From: Mariprofundaceae bacterium
Lineage (GTDB): Bacteria; Pseudomonadota; Zetaproteobacteria; Mariprofundales; Mariprofundaceae
Length of the DNA stretch: 35,075 bases
Assembly: GCA_030950825.1 (NCBI GenBank)
Contig: JAUZQT010000071.1
Location: forward strand, 1 to 35,075
Direction: 5' to 3'
The notes below the pieces were generated by a model that was given only the letters and a program-made list of their open reading frames with translations, ran no database searches and was not told where the DNA came from. This document shows, piece after piece, positions 23,714-35,014 of the stretch (positions are counted from its first letter, which is position 1; each line of letters starts with the position of its first letter). A program made the translations under genes and the position numbers.

Positions 23714-26026
23714 TTAGCTTTTTTGTAGCGTTCCCATAATATATTGCATCATTTTCTGTGGTTCAATAGGCTTGCTTAAAAAAGTATCCATCCCCGCATC
23801 CAAGCATGTTTGCTGAACATCCTCCAAAGCATGGGCACTCAAACCAATAATGTATGTTCGAGGTTTGTTTTTTTCTTTTTCGTATTGGCGTATTTTCTTG
23901 GTTAACACTAGGCCATCAATGCCAGGCATACGCAAATCAAGCAGGATTAGGTCGTAGGATTGTTGTTGAAATAAACGCCAAGCCTCACGCCCATCTTTTG
24001 CCAAATCGGCTTCGACCCCTGACTTTTTAAGGCGTTTCAACGCTATGCGCTGGCTGATTGGATCATCTTCGGCCAGTAAAACTTTGCAGCATTGTAAATG
24101 ATTTTGAACAGATTTCTCAAAATTTGTTCGTGCTTCGATAAGGACATCACCAGCATTGGCAGCATCCAACGAGCATGAGATAACATCTGAATCATACGAG
24201 CATGGGAACCTGAAATTAAAGGTACTGCCTTCACCCAGCTTGCTTTCAATACGAATATCTCCCAGCATTTCTTGAACCAGACGTTTGGCGATGGTTGTGC
24301 CTAAGCCTGTGCCGCTGTGCTGACTTTGCATTAAGTTTGAAACTTGTGTGAAAGGCTCAAAAATAGTATCGATATCTTCTTTTGAGATGCCTATGCCCGT
24401 ATCTTTTACACGAATATCCAGCCATGTTTTATCTAATTTTTGCAACCCTTTTATATGAATATGCACGCCGCCTTTTTCCGTGAATTTCACGGCATTGCCC
24501 ACGAGGTTTACGAGCACTTGGCGAATTCGGACCTCGTCACCCAGTATGACCATTGGGACAGCTTGCATTTCAGCCGTTAGAGTAATGTCCTTATGTTTTA
24601 CCGCGACAACAAATGTTCGCAAGACATCAATAAGACAATCTTTGATATGAACAGGGCTATTTTTTAAGCGAAGTTTTCCTGCTTCAACTTTGGATAAATC
24701 CAAAATATCATTGACCAAAGCTTGCAATGATTGTGCGGATTGTTGCACCAGACTGAAATCTTGTCGTTGTTCTGGGTGGATACCCGACCGCATTAAATCA
24801 AGCAGCCCAATCATGCCATGGAGTGGGGTTCGAAGCTCGTGGCTCATCACGGATAGAAATTCGCTTTTGGCTGTTAATGCTTGTTCAGCCTGCTGTTTTG
24901 CATCAATAAGTTTTACTTCCATGTATTTTCGTTCCTCAATTTCTTTCAGTAGTTTGCCAGTACTTCGTAGAATTGCTGAGCGTTGCATAATCCAGTGCAA
25001 GGTAAGGAAAATAACCAGCAATATTAAAAAGAAGACGCATATTTTCCAAGCCGATGTTTCAAGAACATCCTGCAAGACAATTTTTTTATGGTATAAAAAA
25101 CCATAAAGTGAAAAATCTTTGGGTAACAAACCAAATGTTTGATAAGTCCGTACAATACTTTGCCAGCGGTCGGGATTGATATAACCAATTTGAACCATAT
25201 CAGAATGCATTAAACGTGAAATTTTGCGTGCCTCAAACGCCAAATGCTCACGGCTTTTGTGTTGGCTGTTGTATTTCTTTAAAATAGTATCAATGGCTTG
25301 GTCAGGATGTTTTAAGGCTTCATTCCAGCCTCTTAGTGTTGCTTGTAAAACGCGCTCTACACGATCAGGGTGAAAATCCAGTTCACTTGAAGTTGTGATC
25401 AGCATATCACCATAAAAGTCCACGCCGTAGTCTTGCGGATGGAATTCGTGAAACGCAAAGGCGCGTTTTCTTAATAAAAAAGGTTCGTTGGAAATATAGC
25501 TTGGCCATGCACTGGTTTTACCAGATAGTAAATCATCTATCGAGCCAGTATCTTGTTGAATCACCTCTTTGTTATTGTAGTCAATGCCTGCCTTTTTTAG
25601 CATCGCGATAAGTTCAATACGGATCTTAGAAATCATAACGGCTTGGCCGCGTAACTCAGCAAGCTTGTTGATGGCTTGAGGGGTTATAAGCTCCATGGCC
25701 GAATGTTGAAAAATATTTGCCAAAACGACAACGGGGAAACCTTCGTTTTTATAAAGAAGTACCCCCGTATCGGCGACAGCATATTGTACAGCACCCTCTA
25801 CGAGCGCTTGTATGGGATCTTTATCTGAGGTGCCTTCAATGAGTTCAACTTGAAAGCCTGCATCTTTATAATAGCCTTTTTCAAGTGCGACGATGTAACC
25901 CGCAGATTGAAATTGATGCATCCATTTTAAGTGAATTTTGACGTTTTCGAGTGCAAGCGCGGGAGAGCTCATCAGTAGACTGATGAAACAAGCTGCTATC
26001 AGGGGAAAAAAGCGCATGACATTCAT
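23714..26026 (-). CDS. Hybrid sensor histidine kinase with periplasmic NMT1/THI5-like solute-binding domain and C-terminal receiver
   Basis: Signal peptide, LKWMHQFQSAGYIVALEKGYYKDAGFQVELIEG (NMT1-like), TM after KIVLQDVLETSAW, H-box SEFLSVMSHELRTPLHGMIGLLD, NLVGNAVKFTEKG, GTGLGTTIAKRLV, REC LILLDLRMPGIDGL. Confidence 0.92.
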   Translation of the reverse strand: MNVMRFFPLIAACFISLLMSSPALALENVKIHLKWMHQFQSAGYIVALEKGYYKDAGFQVELIEGTSDKDPIQALVEGAVQYAVADTGVLLYKNEGFPVVVLANIFQHSAMELITPQAINKLAELRGQAVMISKIRIELIAMLKKAGIDYNNKEVIQQDTGSIDDLLSGKTSAWPSYISNEPFLLRKRAFAFHEFHPQDYGVDFYGDMLITTSSELDFHPDRVERVLQATLRGWNEALKHPDQAIDTILKKYNSQHKSREHLAFEARKISRLMHSDMVQIGYINPDRWQSIVRTYQTFGLLPKDFSLYGFLYHKKIVLQDVLETSAWKICVFFLILLVIFLTLHWIMQRSAILRSTGKLLKEIEERKYMEVKLIDAKQQAEQALTAKSEFLSVMSHELRTPLHGMIGLLDLMRSGIHPEQRQDFSLVQQSAQSLQALVNDILDLSKVEAGKLRLKNSPVHIKDCLIDVLRTFVVAVKHKDITLTAEMQAVPMVILGDEVRIRQVLVNLVGNAVKFTEKGGVHIHIKGLQKLDKTWLDIRVKDTGIGISKEDIDTIFEPFTQVSNLMQSQHSGTGLGTTIAKRLVQEMLGDIRIESKLGEGSTFNFRFPCSYDSDVISCSLDAANAGDVLIEARTNFEKSVQNHLQCCKVLLAEDDPISQRIALKRLKKSGVEADLAKDGREAWRLFQQQSYDLILLDLRMPGIDGLVLTKKIRQYEKEKNKPRTYIIGLSAHALEDVQQTCLDAGMDTFLSKPIEPQKMMQYIMGTLQKS

Positions 26027-26368: not shown

Positions 26369-27406
26369 ATGATAAAAAATCAACAGGCGATGGATCAACG
26401 TGGGCTGAAAACCTTGGCGTTGTGGTTGGTATGGGCGGCGATATGCGCTTCGGTGTTTGTGCAGCTGTTTCACCAGGCCAATATCTGGGATTATATTGTC
26501 TATGATACATCACGTGTTACGTGGGTTATTATGGCAACCTTTGTATTTGGTGTGCTGGTCAGTTTGGTGCATGTGGTTGCTTTAACAGTGGAGTGGCTTT
26601 GTACACATCGTTTGCAATATCAGCTTGAAAAACATGGCTTGTATGGCGTGAAAACAAAAAGAAAGTTGGCAAGTAGCCGTTTGATTGCGTCATTGCAACA
26701 CATTCATAGAGGGGGTGGGCAGGTTGATTTGCCGACACTCAGCACGCTAGAATTCTCGGCTTATATTCGTGTTGCTCGCTTTGTTGGGCTGCTTGGAAGC
26801 ATGATGATTACCATGGGTTTGATTGGTACGGTATTGGGCTTAACGATTACCCTGACAGGATTAAATGGTGCTTTGGAGAATATTGATTCTGATGCAACAT
26901 CTGTGCTGATTGGCTTGCGTGAGGCTATGTCTGGCATGGGTTTGGCGTTTTATACCACCTTGCTTGGCTCAATTATGGGTGGCGTGCTATTGCGCATGTT
27001 TGCTTATATTGGTGATAATTCGATTGAGGCATTGCAAGACACGCTGGTGCGCAGTTGTTTGGTGTATGCAGCTATTGATTTAACGCCATCGGTGCAACGC
27101 GATTTTTTGCAATTGGATCGTGTTATTGAAGGTATGGAGCTTCGACTTGGTAGTTTGACGCAATCGTTGCATGAAAGTAAAGCTGCGATGACTTTGTTTG
27201 CTGAAGAGATGCAAGATTTAAAAGGTGCGACATCACTGTCGGCTAGTGATGATGAGATATTCAAGGCCATTGCTGTACACCGCCATTATGCCAAAGTGTT
27301 GCGTTATGAACTGCAACTACAGAGAAAATTAAGTAATTATAAACAGCGACTTTTAGCATTTATGGGGTTTCAGATAGGTGCTCAAAAGAAGCGCTCTGAG
27401 GGTTAG
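26369..27406 (+). CDS. MotA/TolQ/ExbB proton channel-family protein
   Basis: Four predicted TM segments; RFVGLLGSMMITMGLIGTVLGLTITLTGLNGAL and GLREAMSGMGLAFYTTLLGSIMGGVLLRMFAYI match the MotA/ExbB TM3-TM4 signature; helical C-terminal tail. Confidence 0.85.
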   Translation: MIKNQQAMDQRGLKTLALWLVWAAICASVFVQLFHQANIWDYIVYDTSRVTWVIMATFVFGVLVSLVHVVALTVEWLCTHRLQYQLEKHGLYGVKTKRKLASSRLIASLQHIHRGGGQVDLPTLSTLEFSAYIRVARFVGLLGSMMITMGLIGTVLGLTITLTGLNGALENIDSDATSVLIGLREAMSGMGLAFYTTLLGSIMGGVLLRMFAYIGDNSIEALQDTLVRSCLVYAAIDLTPSVQRDFLQLDRVIEGMELRLGSLTQSLHESKAAMTLFAEEMQDLKGATSLSASDDEIFKAIAVHRHYAKVLRYELQLQRKLSNYKQRLLAFMGFQIGAQKKRSEG

Positions 27407-27408
27407 CT

Positions 27409-28191
27409 ATGCGTTCACGGCGTAGGCAGGATCTAAGCTCTATTTATGAGGTGTTTTCCGATATGGCACTGCTGATGTTGGCGGCATTTATCTTTTTGTT
27501 TGCCATGTTTTTAATGGTTTCAAAAGTGAATGACTCAGGGGACTCACTCAAAACAAAAGCGCAGGTTGCCAGTTTGGAAAAAGAGTTGGCCGCTGCTAAA
27601 CAACGTAATTTAGACCTTTTACAGGAAATGGATGCCTTGGTGGGTTCCAGCAGCGAAGTTCAAATGGAAAAGGTGCTGGATTCGGCTGGTTTGGGTAGAG
27701 GGCAGGGGCGTAAAGATTTTGAAATGATGATAAAGGGCTTGCGTAGGATGCCTGGCAAAGATTTGCATTTGATTATTGATGCAACTGGCTCAATGCATGG
27801 GGTGACGGCATTTTTAATTCCTGTTTTACGGGTCATCGCTATTCGGTCGGGGAAACACCTGAGCGCTATTACATGGTTTGCAGATAATCGCACGGGTACC
27901 TATAGGGGCACAATGGGCGAGATGTTTGATTACTTAATGCAAAGCGCGCCATTTATTGGTAATAGAGAGACCATCGGGCACACCTTTGATACATTGGCAA
28001 AAGAAGCAATTATTCCTGGGGCATACATGTTGATTGGTGATGAGCCTCCAACCGACACCGTACATTATCATGCGATCCCTGCCCCTGTGTTTACGCTACC
28101 ACTGGGCAATAGTGATACTAGTACCAAAGTTGCTTTTCAAAAAATAGCAGAAATTTCAGGTGGGCGTATGCTGCAATTGAACTTTCATTAA
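27409..28191 (+). CDS. MotB/ExbD-like single-TM protein with coiled coil and C-terminal VWA-like domain
   Basis: Starts 3 nt after the MotA-like stop codon; FSDMALLMLAAFIFLFAMFLMV has the acidic-residue-then-TM arrangement of MotB/ExbD; coiled coil SLEKELAAAKQRNLDLLQEMDAL; MIDAS-like LHLIIDATGSMHG and LIGDEPPTD. Confidence 0.75.
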   Translation: MRSRRRQDLSSIYEVFSDMALLMLAAFIFLFAMFLMVSKVNDSGDSLKTKAQVASLEKELAAAKQRNLDLLQEMDALVGSSSEVQMEKVLDSAGLGRGQGRKDFEMMIKGLRRMPGKDLHLIIDATGSMHGVTAFLIPVLRVIAIRSGKHLSAITWFADNRTGTYRGTMGEMFDYLMQSAPFIGNRETIGHTFDTLAKEAIIPGAYMLIGDEPPTDTVHYHAIPAPVFTLPLGNSDTSTKVAFQKIAEISGGRMLQLNFH

Positions 28192-28195
28192 CCAC

Positions 28196-31100
28196 TCAAA
28201 AAATCACATCAAACACTTCACCTAGCAGTGGCATGTGAATCAATGTTTTTAGCACTGGTTTATCAGTAGCAAGCTCCACGGCCTTTTTGTATACCGCCAG
28301 TTGTGGTGCATATTGTTTGGCATGTTCGGCGGCATTGCCACCTAGGTAACTTTTGTGATCAATGATCACATAGCCTTCAGATAGCTCAAGCAACATGTCT
28401 ATCATACCAGTCATTCGTTGATTGTTTTCCAACACCATCGTTATCGCCCATTCGCTTTTTACTTTGGCAGTTGGGTAATGCTCAGTGATATATTGATTGA
28501 GTCGATCACTGGCCAGCAATACATCTGAAGCTGTCATCGAATCTTCCACAGCCCAATTGGTGAGCAGGTTTTCGGCATGGCTTAAACGGGCGGCTTCATC
28601 TTGACCAAGATCTGCACCAAGGAAGCCATGCATGGCATTACCAAAGTCTGTCATCTTTGGTTTATCAGTAAGCTTGAGGTGCTCACCAAGAGTGGCGACT
28701 GATGAAACGGTTACATCTTCTTCACTCAGCTCTCCCCCGCTTGCATCCCCCCAATCCGCACTGCTGGGAGCTCTTGTTGCCGCTGGATACTCCTTTGCTT
28801 CAGATAACTTTGGTAGATACCTTGATTCATCGGCAGGCATTGCAACCTCAGCCGCATCACATGGCGGCGTGAGTTCTCGGGTGGTCACCTTGAATACTTT
28901 TGTCTCTTCACCATTGGTGATAATGCTCATTTTACCATCTGAAAAGTTTAAGACGGGTTGATTATCTTCATCGATAAGCTCATCCAACCACTTATTCTCA
29001 ATATCTTTCTTGGCTTTTTCTTGCACCAAAATTAAACCATCTCTGGCTCTTGTCATGCCAACATACAAAACGCGCTGAGACTCCAACAAAGCATGGTTTA
29101 TGGCGGCTTTGGCAATGTCTGATTCTGCAAGACAGGCATCAAGGGCATCGCCCTTTTTCTTGGCGCCATAAGGCCATGGCCAGAAACGAATCGAACGACC
29201 GTTTAAAGGGGTTTCGGCTGTAAAAATTTTAGCTTCGGATACTGAGACACCAAACAAACGGCTTTTCGATGGTTTATTTAAACTGGTCATCACCACCACT
29301 GGCAATTCAAGGCCTTTGGATTTGTGATAAGTAAGTACATTCACTGTGTTTTCACCTGAGCTTTCTGCTTGTTTTAACTCAGCTTCACTGCTTAACCAAG
29401 TTAAAAAACCTATCACCGTGGCTGAGCTGTGCCTTGACTTGCACCTATTCTGATATTCAATGCATGCAGCACGCAATTGATCAAGATTACTTAAGCGCAA
29501 GTCAACATTACCCCAAGCATGAACCGTGCGTTCCATATTCACACTTGCCATAGCTTTTTCCAATGACTCTAATGGTGTGAGATACACAGCTTTCTTGCCT
29601 GCTTGCGTTAGCGCAACCATCAAGGGATCTTCTTGCCAGCTTGCTTGGGTGGTTTCGCCATCATTAAGTAAATTTTTCAGCCAATCATCATGGGCACTGT
29701 GCTGGCGACTAAAACAAACAATCTCCGCCATGGCGATGGTGTCCTGTTGATCAGCCATATAACGCAATGCTGCCAAGGCCAATGTACACTCATTGGTTGC
29801 CAGCAGATCCCCCTGAGCAATAGAGGCGCGAATACCAATGGCATTGAGTGATGCAGATACGGTTTCGCATTCCTTATTCGAACGACAAAGAATGGCGATA
29901 TCCCCTGCTTTGATCTTACGCTCTGTAATCAGATCTTTAATGCCAGAAACAAGTGCGCTGCTTCTTTTTTCAATATTACTGCCTTCCATCACCCAATTTT
30001 CCAACCAACCATCTTTTGCTGACTCTTTGCGTGCTTCGGGAATATTAAGGCGTACCTTATCTTCGCCCATCTGATGGAACACAGGGCCGAAAATTTCATT
30101 GCAAAAACTGACCAGTTGCTCTTTTGAGCGCCATGAGTCTTTGAGTACATTATCAGCTGAGGCAGCACCTGCTTGCAACTCAATGTCACTGGCCACAGCA
30201 TCCATTAACACCGGATCTGCCCCACGGAAACCATAGATGGATTGTTTCTGATCACCCACCCAAACCACATCTTCAGCCAACTCTGAAAATTTAAGGAACA
30301 GTGCCAATTGAATAGGGCTGGTATCTTGAAACTCATCGACCATCAATAATTTCACACGCTCTTTGATTGAGGCTTGGAAGGATGGGTTATTGGTTGCCAT
30401 ATCCAATACCAAGGCTTCTTGATCAACAAAATCCATAAGCCCTTGCTCACGTTTGTACAAAGCATACTGCTCTAGGGCATGGCCTGCACAATCAAATACA
30501 CCTTTGATCATGGCTTGCATATCATCGCGGAATCGTGGGTGTTTGAGATGTTCACTGGATCCTTCAGCGGCCCATGGCCCCCACAAATCTTTAACCAGAT
30601 CACCACCCCGCTTGCCAATCTCAATATTCTCAATTTCTAGCCAGTCAACCCAACTCAGCTCCCAGCCTTTACTTAATTTCTGGTGGATATTTTGTAAGGA
30701 TTTTTGCGCCAGTTTATTTACTTTTTCACCAGCTTCAATCAGATTTACTGCTTGAAATACGGCATCTTTCAAGCGTTCATCTAAGCCAATGCCCATTTCT
30801 TGACCATGTGATTTGCCAAGCAGTGATTCTAATGAAGCCCACGACTCATCACCGGATGTTGTTAAGTTTTCAGGTGTCATGGCATTGGAACGCGCAAGGT
30901 TGACTATTTCACGAACAAAATCACGCCAATCAGCTTGTTTGGCAAACGCTGAGCCGTAGCCCATTAAGCCCAAACGTCGTGCAATGGGTTCAAGCTGTTT
31001 TCCAGCTTTATCAATGGCCGAGGCCGTTGCAATATTAAAAATACGTGACGCATCCTCTTCCAAAAGCACATCAACGGCCGGTGATAAACCAGCTTCAAAG

Positions 31101-31381
31101 GCATATTCCTTAAGCAGGCGCGAGCAAATTGAATTGACCGTACCTATTAGCCCATCATAGATGCGCTGGGCTTCATCTGCTTTGCTTTCATCAAGCAAGC
31201 GCATACGAATGCGTTCTTTAAGCTCTGCTGCCGCTTTATTGGTGAATGTCGTGGCCATAATCTGTTCGGGCGCGACAGGATTGCCCCCCCCTTCACCGCT
31301 GATTCTTTGGGCAATTTCATTCATTAAACGATAGGTTTTACCTGAACCAGCACTGGCACTAATCAACTGAATATTTTTCAT
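28196..31381 (-). CDS. AddA/RecB-like UvrD-family helicase with C-terminal PD-(D/E)XK nuclease domain
   Basis: MKNIQLISASAGSGKTYRLMNEIAQ Walker A, TTFTNKAAAELKERI, KLLMVDEFQDTSPIQ, QKQSIYGFRGAD, VLYVGMTRARDGLILV, nuclease GMIDMLLELSEGYVIIDHKS. Confidence 0.9.
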   Translation of the reverse strand: MKNIQLISASAGSGKTYRLMNEIAQRISGEGGGNPVAPEQIMATTFTNKAAAELKERIRMRLLDESKADEAQRIYDGLIGTVNSICSRLLKEYAFEAGLSPAVDVLLEEDASRIFNIATASAIDKAGKQLEPIARRLGLMGYGSAFAKQADWRDFVREIVNLARSNAMTPENLTTSGDESWASLESLLGKSHGQEMGIGLDERLKDAVFQAVNLIEAGEKVNKLAQKSLQNIHQKLSKGWELSWVDWLEIENIEIGKRGGDLVKDLWGPWAAEGSSEHLKHPRFRDDMQAMIKGVFDCAGHALEQYALYKREQGLMDFVDQEALVLDMATNNPSFQASIKERVKLLMVDEFQDTSPIQLALFLKFSELAEDVVWVGDQKQSIYGFRGADPVLMDAVASDIELQAGAASADNVLKDSWRSKEQLVSFCNEIFGPVFHQMGEDKVRLNIPEARKESAKDGWLENWVMEGSNIEKRSSALVSGIKDLITERKIKAGDIAILCRSNKECETVSASLNAIGIRASIAQGDLLATNECTLALAALRYMADQQDTIAMAEIVCFSRQHSAHDDWLKNLLNDGETTQASWQEDPLMVALTQAGKKAVYLTPLESLEKAMASVNMERTVHAWGNVDLRLSNLDQLRAACIEYQNRCKSRHSSATVIGFLTWLSSEAELKQAESSGENTVNVLTYHKSKGLELPVVVMTSLNKPSKSRLFGVSVSEAKIFTAETPLNGRSIRFWPWPYGAKKKGDALDACLAESDIAKAAINHALLESQRVLYVGMTRARDGLILVQEKAKKDIENKWLDELIDEDNQPVLNFSDGKMSIITNGEETKVFKVTTRELTPPCDAAEVAMPADESRYLPKLSEAKEYPAATRAPSSADWGDASGGELSEEDVTVSSVATLGEHLKLTDKPKMTDFGNAMHGFLGADLGQDEAARLSHAENLLTNWAVEDSMTASDVLLASDRLNQYITEHYPTAKVKSEWAITMVLENNQRMTGMIDMLLELSEGYVIIDHKSYLGGNAAEHAKQYAPQLAVYKKAVELATDKPVLKTLIHMPLLGEVFDVIF

Positions 31382-34125
31382 GCTTCTGCCCTCGCTTTGC
31401 CACATAATTTACCAAAGTCACAGAAGTGACATGGCGGACTTGAATACATTAAATCAGCTTCCTCACGTGCAGCTTGAAGTTCTTTTCCCTCGATCAAGCC
31501 AGACACTTCAATCTCTCCCGTTGTCATTTTCTTGAATAAATCAGTCCAAGTCTTAGAACCTGAATTCCAAACCTCTTTGGCTGATAATGGACTTTCAATC
31601 ACAGATGTTGTATTAAAACGAACATCATCGGTAAGTACCTCTCCCTGTGCCAGCATAAAATATGCACCTGGTGCCCAATCACTATCGCTCTTAGCCAACA
31701 TCCATGCATAACTGGCCAACTGCAAGGCTTTGCCTTTTTCAACTTCTTCTTTTTTATATTTTATCGAGCTCGACCATTTTAAATCGATTACAAACGTATT
31801 GCCCGCATGATCTTCCAGCAATAGATCAATATAGCCTCGAAATGGAATGCCATTCAAAGCTTTTCCTTCAACTTTACCTTCTGTTTTGGTGACATGCAGA
31901 GCTGCTTGATCAATCGATTTCACCAAAGCATCCACCGCATCACACACACCCAGTCGGTAACGCTGACGCTCCACTTCACGACCTGATTCAAGAAGCTCTG
32001 CGGCCATTTGTGGCACACGTATATCAAACAATTCGGAAGCTCTTGTGGTTACAGTATCCGCTGACCATGTTGTCGGCGCTAAATAAAGGTCTTCTACAAT
32101 TTTATGGCACAGTGAGCCAATCATGGTGTTACCCGTTGGTAAGCTGAGTGAATCCATCGCCCTTAAACCCGCATGATATTGCAATGCCCACTTGGTTGGG
32201 CAGCCAATTAGTGTACTCATCTGAGAAAAAGAAAGCCTTTTCGGTTTGACGATGCAACCAGGCTCTACCGCAATGGTTGCTTGGGCTTGTGCCAATATAC
32301 TTGTCTTTTCTTGCTCTAAAAGCATCTCACGCCCGGCAAAAGAAATAGACTCCTGCTGATGAAGCTTCTGCCCTTCAACGGTAAGGTAAGCAAACAACGC
32401 TTTTTTTTCTGAATCCGATGTTTGTTGTTGCGTGGCAAAATGACGAATCTCATCCCAAAGTGGGTGCGGCTGCACTGCCTGCCCATTCAAACGTTTTGGC
32501 GTGACCAAAATTAAACGCTTTCCTGCATAAGCCAGAGCATTGCGCCATTGCTGACTTTGCCTAGCGCGCACTTGTTGGGATGTTTCCAAATGAATACCAA
32601 TGCTTGCTAGATTTGAGCGTTCTTCACCACTCCAGAAGGTCATGGATGATTGTCCGGGGTCGGTGAAGCCCCACCAGATGATGGTTTCAACTTCAGCGGC
32701 AATAGCACCCGAATCGAAAACACTTAACCAGGGCGCTGCTTGAACCACGATCTCAGAGTTTTCCCCGCCCTCCGCAATCACCGAGTCCAACATACGCTCC
32801 ACTTGCGCTCTAGGGATTGGTTTTTGATAACAATCTGCCAACGCAATCATACATTCAACTTGGGCTAAGGCCTGGGTCATACTGCGTTCTAAACTAGGGG
32901 ATTTCAAACCCAGTTTCACCCATTCACACATTGCTTTTAATGATTCTGGAGGAATGCCTTCACTGGGATCAAAACGTAAATTTGTAAGGTGGTGCTTTAA
33001 CTGCTCCATCAGTTGTGGTGCTTGTTTTAGAGCGGCATCTTCATCCAGACCATTTTCAAGCAAGATCTGTTGCTGCTCTTTTGTGATTTTCTGCTCAGCT
33101 TTTAGCCAGTGCTCGCCACCAATACCTGGTTCATTTTGAATCGCACGACATAATAGTTGTGCAGCAAAGCTTGGCACAGGCGAATAAGGCAAAGAAAGCA
33201 GCGATAAAAGGGCATGAATATCCAATGGATTCCAAACATTGGCCAAACTCAAAGGTAAAATTTGCAATGCAGCGCGCCAGGCTGATCGCTGATTATTACC
33301 CAGCATCGGCAATCCTGCATTGTGTAGTGCTGCATCCAATACATCACTGCCTTGCCCCTGAATCAGTAATACTTCACCATTATTTTCCTCACCAGCTTTT
33401 AGCCATGAAGCAACACTGTTGGCAGCCGACCATTCATCGTCTGCGCGTAATAAAATAAGAGAGTCATCTTCAGCGACAATATTTTCTCTAGCTTCAGATG
33501 CGCAGAACATCGCTTGTTGAATACGACCAAGGTTGCCTGCTGCCGATGTGTGTTGTGCTTGGTTAATAACCATTTCCACACCACAAATGGCAAGTCTGTT
33601 CATCACTTGTTTTAATAAAGCAGGGAGATTGTTTGAATTTTCAACCAGTTCAATTTTTTCAATCGATATCGCTGCAACATGATCCAGTGCAATAAGCACC
33701 CTTTGCAATTTATCACCCAAGCCTTGTTTCAAGGATTCAGGCAACACTTGATCAATCACGGCCAATGCTTTTAAGCGCGCTGTAAATGCAGCATCACTTT
33801 GACCTGTCCAACCAGCAAGCACCAGCTCATCACGCCAAGCCAGCATCTGTTTGGCCGAAGACCAGGAGTCGGCTGCAAAAGATTCCGTAAAGAAAGCTGC
33901 GTCTGCCTTACTCAGTACATTGTCGCGCACCTCACGCATACAGTCCATATAACCCTGGATCCGCATTGTGTGATGGGTTGCTTTGCCTGTGAGTCCTAAA
34001 TGCGTTTCTAAGACATTCAACAGCCCTTTAGGCCCCGTAAACAACTTGCCAAGAGAAGCTTCTCCAGCTCGAACACCATCAGGTGCCACGCTTTGGTCGT
34101 ACGCCATATCAAAAACAATGTGCAT
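31378..34125 (-). CDS. AddB-like PD-(D/E)XK nuclease with probable Fe-S cysteines
   Basis: C-terminal SFSQMSTLIGCPTKWALQY, GYIDLLLEDHAGNTFVIDLKWSSS, and CHFCDFGKLC; upstream in operon with the helicase, ATGA overlap at 31378-31381. No Walker A seen at the N-terminus. Confidence 0.82.
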   Translation of the reverse strand: MHIVFDMAYDQSVAPDGVRAGEASLGKLFTGPKGLLNVLETHLGLTGKATHHTMRIQGYMDCMREVRDNVLSKADAAFFTESFAADSWSSAKQMLAWRDELVLAGWTGQSDAAFTARLKALAVIDQVLPESLKQGLGDKLQRVLIALDHVAAISIEKIELVENSNNLPALLKQVMNRLAICGVEMVINQAQHTSAAGNLGRIQQAMFCASEARENIVAEDDSLILLRADDEWSAANSVASWLKAGEENNGEVLLIQGQGSDVLDAALHNAGLPMLGNNQRSAWRAALQILPLSLANVWNPLDIHALLSLLSLPYSPVPSFAAQLLCRAIQNEPGIGGEHWLKAEQKITKEQQQILLENGLDEDAALKQAPQLMEQLKHHLTNLRFDPSEGIPPESLKAMCEWVKLGLKSPSLERSMTQALAQVECMIALADCYQKPIPRAQVERMLDSVIAEGGENSEIVVQAAPWLSVFDSGAIAAEVETIIWWGFTDPGQSSMTFWSGEERSNLASIGIHLETSQQVRARQSQQWRNALAYAGKRLILVTPKRLNGQAVQPHPLWDEIRHFATQQQTSDSEKKALFAYLTVEGQKLHQQESISFAGREMLLEQEKTSILAQAQATIAVEPGCIVKPKRLSFSQMSTLIGCPTKWALQYHAGLRAMDSLSLPTGNTMIGSLCHKIVEDLYLAPTTWSADTVTTRASELFDIRVPQMAAELLESGREVERQRYRLGVCDAVDALVKSIDQAALHVTKTEGKVEGKALNGIPFRGYIDLLLEDHAGNTFVIDLKWSSSIKYKKEEVEKGKALQLASYAWMLAKSDSDWAPGAYFMLAQGEVLTDDVRFNTTSVIESPLSAKEVWNSGSKTWTDLFKKMTTGEIEVSGLIEGKELQAAREEADLMYSSPPCHFCDFGKLCGKARAEA

Positions 34126-34588: not shown

Positions 34589-35014
34589 ATGAGTATTTCT
34601 ATAATCATTGATACATGCGTCTTTATTTCGGCTTTACGCTCAAACCGAGGAGCATCATTTAAAATTCTGTCTCTCATTGACAGTGGTAAATTTGAGTTTT
34701 ACTTGTCTGTAGCTCTTGTTTTGGAATATGAAGCAGTGGCAAAACGAAGCACTCAAAAACTCGAGCTTACAGATTCAGATATAGAAGAGCTTATCGATTA
34801 CATGTGTGCTGTAGGAAAGTCTCGCCAAGTACACTTCTTATGGCGGCCGAGCTTAAAAGATCCATCGGATGATTTTATTTTAGAGTTGGCTGTAGAGTCT
34901 CAATGTAATTACATCGTTACACATAATATTCGAGATTTTGCAGGTGCTGGAAAATTTAAAGTCAAAGTAATCACACCACAAAAATTCCTTAAAATTATAG
35001 GAGCTATATCATGA
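34589..35014 (+). CDS. PIN-domain toxin of a toxin-antitoxin system (COG1569-like)
   Basis: SIIIDTCVFISALRSNRGASFKIL, VLEYEAVAKR, WRPSLKDPSDDFILELAVESQCNYIVTHNIRDFAGAGKF: acidic PIN residues and typical family wording. Confidence 0.85.
   Translation: MSISIIIDTCVFISALRSNRGASFKILSLIDSGKFEFYLSVALVLEYEAVAKRSTQKLELTDSDIEELIDYMCAVGKSRQVHFLWRPSLKDPSDDFILELAVESQCNYIVTHNIRDFAGAGKFKVKVITPQKFLKIIGAIS

Follow-up and report, generated by a model that had tools for sequence, protein, structure and literature searches.

A putative MotA/TolQ/ExbB-type motor pair with a predicted VWA output domain in Zetaproteobacteria and its nitric-oxide-linked operon context

Background

Motors that pair a TolQ-like pentamer with a vWA protein were predicted only in 2025, when vWA proteins were proposed as the dimeric pore-helix partner of such pentamers (PMC12204202, Mol Biol Evol 2025, Fig. 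4c,d), and their function was not known at that time. A VWA domain also features in a very different machine, NorQD of nitric oxide reductase, which has been reported to work by twisting (PMC13036017). Here, we analyze a stretch of 35,075 nucleotides (“the window”; contig JAUZQT010000071.1 of assembly GCA_030950825.1) from a Mariprofundaceae bacterium, an iron-oxidizing marine member of the Zetaproteobacteria. The window contains two adjacent genes, A and B, which an earlier note on the same DNA had described as an ion-channel-like motor pair whose B subunit carries a VWA domain. That note knew of no described system with this architecture; the TolQ-like motors with pore-helix-vWA partners of PMC12204202 are such systems.

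The A-B family offers a physiological context for these vWA-armed motors. In relatives, the pair lies with genes for an NsrR/RirA-like regulator, truncated globins, a reductase and a NirK-like oxidase. This operon context is the first strong genomic lead known to us, and it suggests for A-B a role in nitric-oxide/nitrite metabolism, as an ion-driven motor working through a periplasmic VWA domain. As the pair is also present in a cultured genus (Mariprofundus sp. EBB-1), its function is open to testing.

Results

Both open reading frames are present on the + strand of the window, with A preceding B as the earlier note had stated, although 2 nt rather than the 3 nt given there separate the A stop from the B start. 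A is a member of the MotA/TolQ/ExbB-type superfamily, in agreement with its initial description as a subunit with four transmembrane (TM) helices. It matches PF01618 (MotA_ExbB) above the Pfam gathering score (E 1.1e-5), and its predicted structure (mean pLDDT 79) matches those of ExbB, TolQ, ZorA and MotA in Foldseek with a probability near 1, yet with no E-value below 0.001. Thr154 in TM3 and Thr196 and Thr197 in TM4 are invariant among 24 aligned A proteins. Comparing profiles with individual MotA, MotB and ExbB sequences of E. coli gave matches too weak for use, apart from placing the TM3 threonine. By analogy with MotA, ExbB and TolQ, Thr196-Thr197 are presumed to line the pore. The features of A are as follows.

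26369..27406, + strand: gene A, MotA/TolQ/ExbB-type motor subunit of 345 aa with four TM helices and a cytoplasmic helical tail of ~100 aa (PF01618, Foldseek, 24-sequence alignment)
26756..26872, + strand: TM3 of A with invariant Thr154 (26828-26830), aligned with the GTVWG segment (Thr148) of E. coli ExbB (alignment, model)
26894..27004, + strand: TM4 of A with invariant Thr196-Thr197 (26954-26959), presumed pore-lining (alignment, model)
27092..27361, + strand: C-terminal helical tail of A, residues 242-331 (model, moderate to low confidence)

The sequences FSDMALLMLAAFIFLFAMFLMV, DATGSM and GDEPPTD are all present in B. We aligned 24 B proteins, namely the window copy and 23 relatives that are 58-84% identical to it. 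Asp18, which precedes the hydrophobic helix, is invariant in all 24, and every one of these proteins matches MotB_plug, if weakly (best E 0.0014), which agrees with the proposed acidic residue next to a single TM helix. The model of B is poor in the TM and coil regions and fair in residues 117-260, where the best fold matches are almost all VWA or I domains (NorD, VWF A2, CMG2, CLCA1, integrin I; best E 6.1e-5). In the alignment, D124, T126, S128 and D211 are invariant and T188 is nearly so, and B carries an intact MIDAS-type signature, a DxTxS variant of the DxSxS motif of the metal-ion-dependent adhesion site (MIDAS) together with T188 and D211, with the predicted metal ligands kept.

The VWA fold of B is thus a prediction, and because Pfam detects no VWA domain in B the assignment rests on fold and motif. 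Of the domains that the earlier note expected from Pfam, MotA_ExbB was recovered for A and MotB_plug, weakly, for B; the C-terminal VWA domain with MIDAS-like motifs is instead supported by fold comparison and by the conserved residues. Neither Pfam nor the fold search finds a peptidoglycan-binding or OmpA-type domain in B, which ends with the VWA domain. Given the arginine-rich N-terminus (MRSRRR), the single TM helix and the positive-inside rule, the VWA domain should be periplasmic, as had been thought probable. B comprises the following features.

27409..28191, + strand: gene B, 260 aa, pore helix, coiled coil and predicted VWA domain, without a peptidoglycan-binding domain (alignment, model, Foldseek)
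27454..27522, + strand: trans-pore helix of B, residues 16-38, with invariant Asp18 (27460-27462); MotB_plug in 24/24, aligned with FVDAM of OmpA-type B subunits (alignment)
27553..27642, + strand: predicted coiled coil of B, residues 49-78 (model, of low confidence there; coiled-coil-type profile matches)
27757..28188, + strand: predicted VWA domain of B, residues ~117-260 (model; best Foldseek matches are VWA domains)
27778..27795, + strand: MIDAS-type motif 1, DATGSM, with D124, T126 and S128 invariant (alignment)
27970..27972, + strand: T188, candidate MIDAS threonine, Ser in one member (alignment)
28036..28056, + strand: MIDAS-type motif 3, GDEPPTD, with D211 invariant (alignment)

A adjoins B in every examined locus long enough to show both, so that the two genes are conserved together. 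Against close relatives, the ratio of nonsynonymous to synonymous polymorphism (pN/pS) is 0.15-0.17 for B and 0.18-0.22 for A; therefore, both are under purifying selection. The pair is not a chance arrangement, and its genes are inherited together. B homologs occur in 43 of the 78 Zetaproteobacteria genomes, some of which carry two or three copies; no pair was found in the other 35, which include 16 of the 39 high-quality genomes. None was detected among ~320 other Pseudomonadota genomes; a weak match to B outside the class (G056) was rejected, as it lies in an unrelated metabolic gene stretch without a motor gene. A search of 80 other Pseudomonadota genomes with the A1 profile at E up to 10 gave unconvincing matches only, and plasmid records yielded nothing for A and chance-level matches for B. 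On one contig of G128, A-B is present twice in almost identical form, in a globin operon (L064) and, ~92 kb away, beside CcoG/LysR (L065), pointing to a recent duplication or to gene conversion.

In relatives from at least five genera, a gene order recurs in which an Rrf2 regulator gene is divergent from two truncated globin genes and a globin/ferredoxin-type reductase gene, which are followed by NirK-cytochrome c-F26, by iPGM or by CcoG, and then by A-B. The spacing between iPGM and A is 0-1 nt in three genomes (L059, L060, L074). The Rrf2 regulator scores best with NsrR (125 bits, below the cut-off of 182), with RirA next (104 bits). An operator-like element, AAAGATATATTTGGTTGACATCTTTT in consensus, precedes the globins and overlaps TTGACA; aligned by hand and without a significance test, it resembles the published NsrR palindrome gATGyAT-N5-ATrCATc (PMC1274295). 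In Legionella, the sole NsrR target is a globin-ferredoxin-reductase operon for which oxidation of nitric oxide (NO) has been proposed (PMC1274295). Zetaproteobacteria express nirK highly in iron mats (PMC8114936) and are therefore likely to face NO. The label “NirK-like” is tentative, because copper-resistance oxidases outscore nitrite reductase as a match for the multicopper oxidase in these operons.

Two further proteins accompany these operons. In the NirK-type operons, the gene for F26, a protein of ~250 aa without a family match, separates the cytochrome c gene from A (L062:10644-11417, L027:4756-5505); F26 could be a partner of the motor. F8, a multi-TM protein of ~500 aa without a Pfam or NCBIfam match, adjoins the Rrf2 gene in most operons (L062:16314-17819, L066:13318-14787 and relatives).

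Copies with the operon linkage lie on either side of the B tree, and the sisters of the window copy are among them. For this reason, the position of the window copy outside a globin operon is most simply a derived loss. The recurrence of the linkage across such distant branches also bears on a second explanation, in which A-B is a general envelope force transducer of the Tol/Ton-like kind that PMC12204202 proposes for its vWA systems, with no specific tie to NO and with a linkage that is historical. The shared architecture speaks for it, as do isolated copies and those next to iPGM, CcoG or unrelated genes. However, a purely historical linkage sits poorly with its repeated occurrence, and since the pair was not found in nearly half of the class genomes, A-B is not an essential envelope function. 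We regard a general transducer as possible but not probable.

We examined co-occurrence in the 39 high-quality genomes, of which 23 are A-B-positive and 16 negative, with globins assigned manually according to how strongly they matched and whether they stood in tandem. At least one operon-type globin is present in all 23 positive genomes versus 4 of the negative ones (Fisher p 5e-7), and the reductase ortholog in 21/23 versus 3/16 (Fisher p 6e-6), both tests ignoring phylogeny. In most of the positive genomes, the association with globins is physical linkage; the operon is apparently split across contig ends in G025, G028, G081 and G103, while A-B and the globin module lie apart in G005, G006 and G038. 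The same genomes were used to consider whether A-B might power the cell rotation behind the twisted iron stalks of Mariprofundus. Stalk genes of the Sfz2-like type are present in 7/23 positive and 7/16 negative genomes (Fisher p 0.5), and we rejected this idea, whose probability we consider negligible, for want of association with the marker.

In the window itself, the pair lies between a hybrid histidine kinase/response regulator with an NMT1/THI5-type sensor domain (23714-26026, - strand) and an AddAB-like helicase-nuclease pair (28196-34125, - strand), neither of which is next to A-B in the other loci read. A PIN-domain toxin-like gene is located at 34589-35014 (+ strand; PF13470, TIGR00305). 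The earlier note had seen in this neighborhood a hint of defense. The hint fails because the helicase-nuclease genes are AddAB-like, that is, ordinary double-strand-break repair genes, because they adjoin A-B in the window only, and because no ZorC/D/E-type gene is present. A Zorya-like anti-phage system would be in keeping with the four-TM layout and tail of A, with its weak matches to ZorA models (best E 3.6e-6) and with a patchy distribution in several copies per genome. Yet the ZorA model scores 18.8 bits on A against a cut-off of 100, no nuclease or helicase is conserved beside the pair, the tail of A is short, B has no ZorB peptidoglycan-binding domain, and the conserved neighbors are metabolic. 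Phage defense was rejected as lacking supporting partner genes, and we consider it very unlikely.

Discussion

We favor, with moderate confidence, the explanation that A-B is an ion-driven motor with a periplasmic VWA domain that grips in a metal-dependent manner and serves a nitric-oxide/nitrite or microaerobic process. A and B would form a rotary complex, presumably of five A around two B, in which protonation of Asp18 (or Na+ binding) inside the threonine ring of A drives rotation between pentamer and dimer. The two B chains would pass this motion along their short coiled coil to a pair of periplasmic VWA domains; these may grip a partner by MIDAS metal-dependent binding in place of binding peptidoglycan. 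Across the class, A-B forms part of, or accompanies, a globin-reductase operon under an NsrR/RirA-like regulator, and its partner would therefore most likely lie in the envelope or periplasm and be required during exposure to nitric oxide/nitrite or during microaerobic respiration.

Several observations weigh against this explanation. The VWA domain escapes Pfam, and model confidence is low for the TM helix and coil of B. No operator-like site lies upstream of A in the window, and several copies, that of the window included, are outside the operon. Other copies follow iPGM or CcoG, so that the link to NO may reflect microaerobic respiration in general. The co-occurrence with globins is largely physical linkage and shared ancestry, and three or four of the A-B-negative genomes nevertheless carry the globin module.

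A more specific form of the favored explanation would make A-B a periplasmic counterpart, powered by the proton-motive force, of the ATP-driven MoxR/VWA metal-insertion machines (NorQ-NorD), with the motor twisting a VWA adaptor that remodels a periplasmic metalloenzyme of nitrite/NO metabolism, such as the NirK-like oxidase or a cytochrome. NorD, as part of the NorQD complex for which the twisting cited above was reported, ranks first among the fold matches of B, and the NirK-like oxidase and cytochrome c genes lie directly upstream of A-B in several lineages. However, the fold likeness spans the whole VWA class, so that NorD as the top match is weak evidence; many A-B operons have no NirK, and NorD is cytoplasmic. 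This version seems to us rather improbable.

Among other known motors, MotAB, ExbBD and TolQR share with A-B the A-subunit core and a pore helix with an Asp, whereas B has neither an OmpA-type nor an ExbD/TolR periplasmic domain. Zorya ZorAB belongs to the same 5:2 motor superfamily and likewise has a four-TM A subunit with a cytoplasmic tail; A-B differs from it in having no long tail, no peptidoglycan-binding domain in B and no ZorC/D/E. The closest relatives of A found outside the class (profile E 3.7e-10) belong to pairs of an ExbB-like protein and an OmpA-type B subunit (L106-L109, L113, L114), the OmpA assignment in L106-L109 and L113 being made from sequence rather than by family search. 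The pore helix of these subunits aligns with that of B (E 3.6e-4) and the start of the coiled coil is similar, but their C-terminus is an OmpA-type domain, in most cases preceded by a very long coil, whereas the predicted VWA domain of B follows a short one. The simplest reading would be an exchange of output domains on a common motor; since the closest outside relatives of A pair with OmpA-type arms, the family suggests how such exchanges take place. Separately, at L110:4595-6108 and L111:5096-6549, a MotA/ExbB-like gene is followed by one for a 228-aa single-TM protein of unfamiliar type (ITLDWPDNHPDDLDL), possibly another unusual motor partner. NorQ-NorD also acts through a VWA domain, in nitric oxide metabolism, but its motor is ATP-driven, cytoplasmic and unrelated, and the likeness is in working principle only.

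The described systems that A-B fits best are the TPH-vWA systems of PMC12204202, the comparison being one of described architecture. These have a tolQ-like gene beside one for a vWA protein whose pore helix carries a proton-binding Asp, a Thr ring, and no tolR/exbD; no tolR/exbD was seen among the open reading frames neighboring A-B, as judged from those frames and without a dedicated ExbD search. We sought systems of the Idiomarina type by intersecting MotA_ExbB and VWA_2 matches and then reading ~40 MotA_ExbB loci of other genomes, which had no VWA neighbor. The TPH-vWA systems predominantly have heterologous pairs of vWA genes and are broadly distributed in Proteobacteria and Verrucomicrobia, whereas A-B has one B gene in every locus read. 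The single B gene, the restriction, as far as searched, to one class, the Zetaproteobacteria, and the conserved NO-linked operon context are what is new in A-B relative to the systems of PMC12204202.
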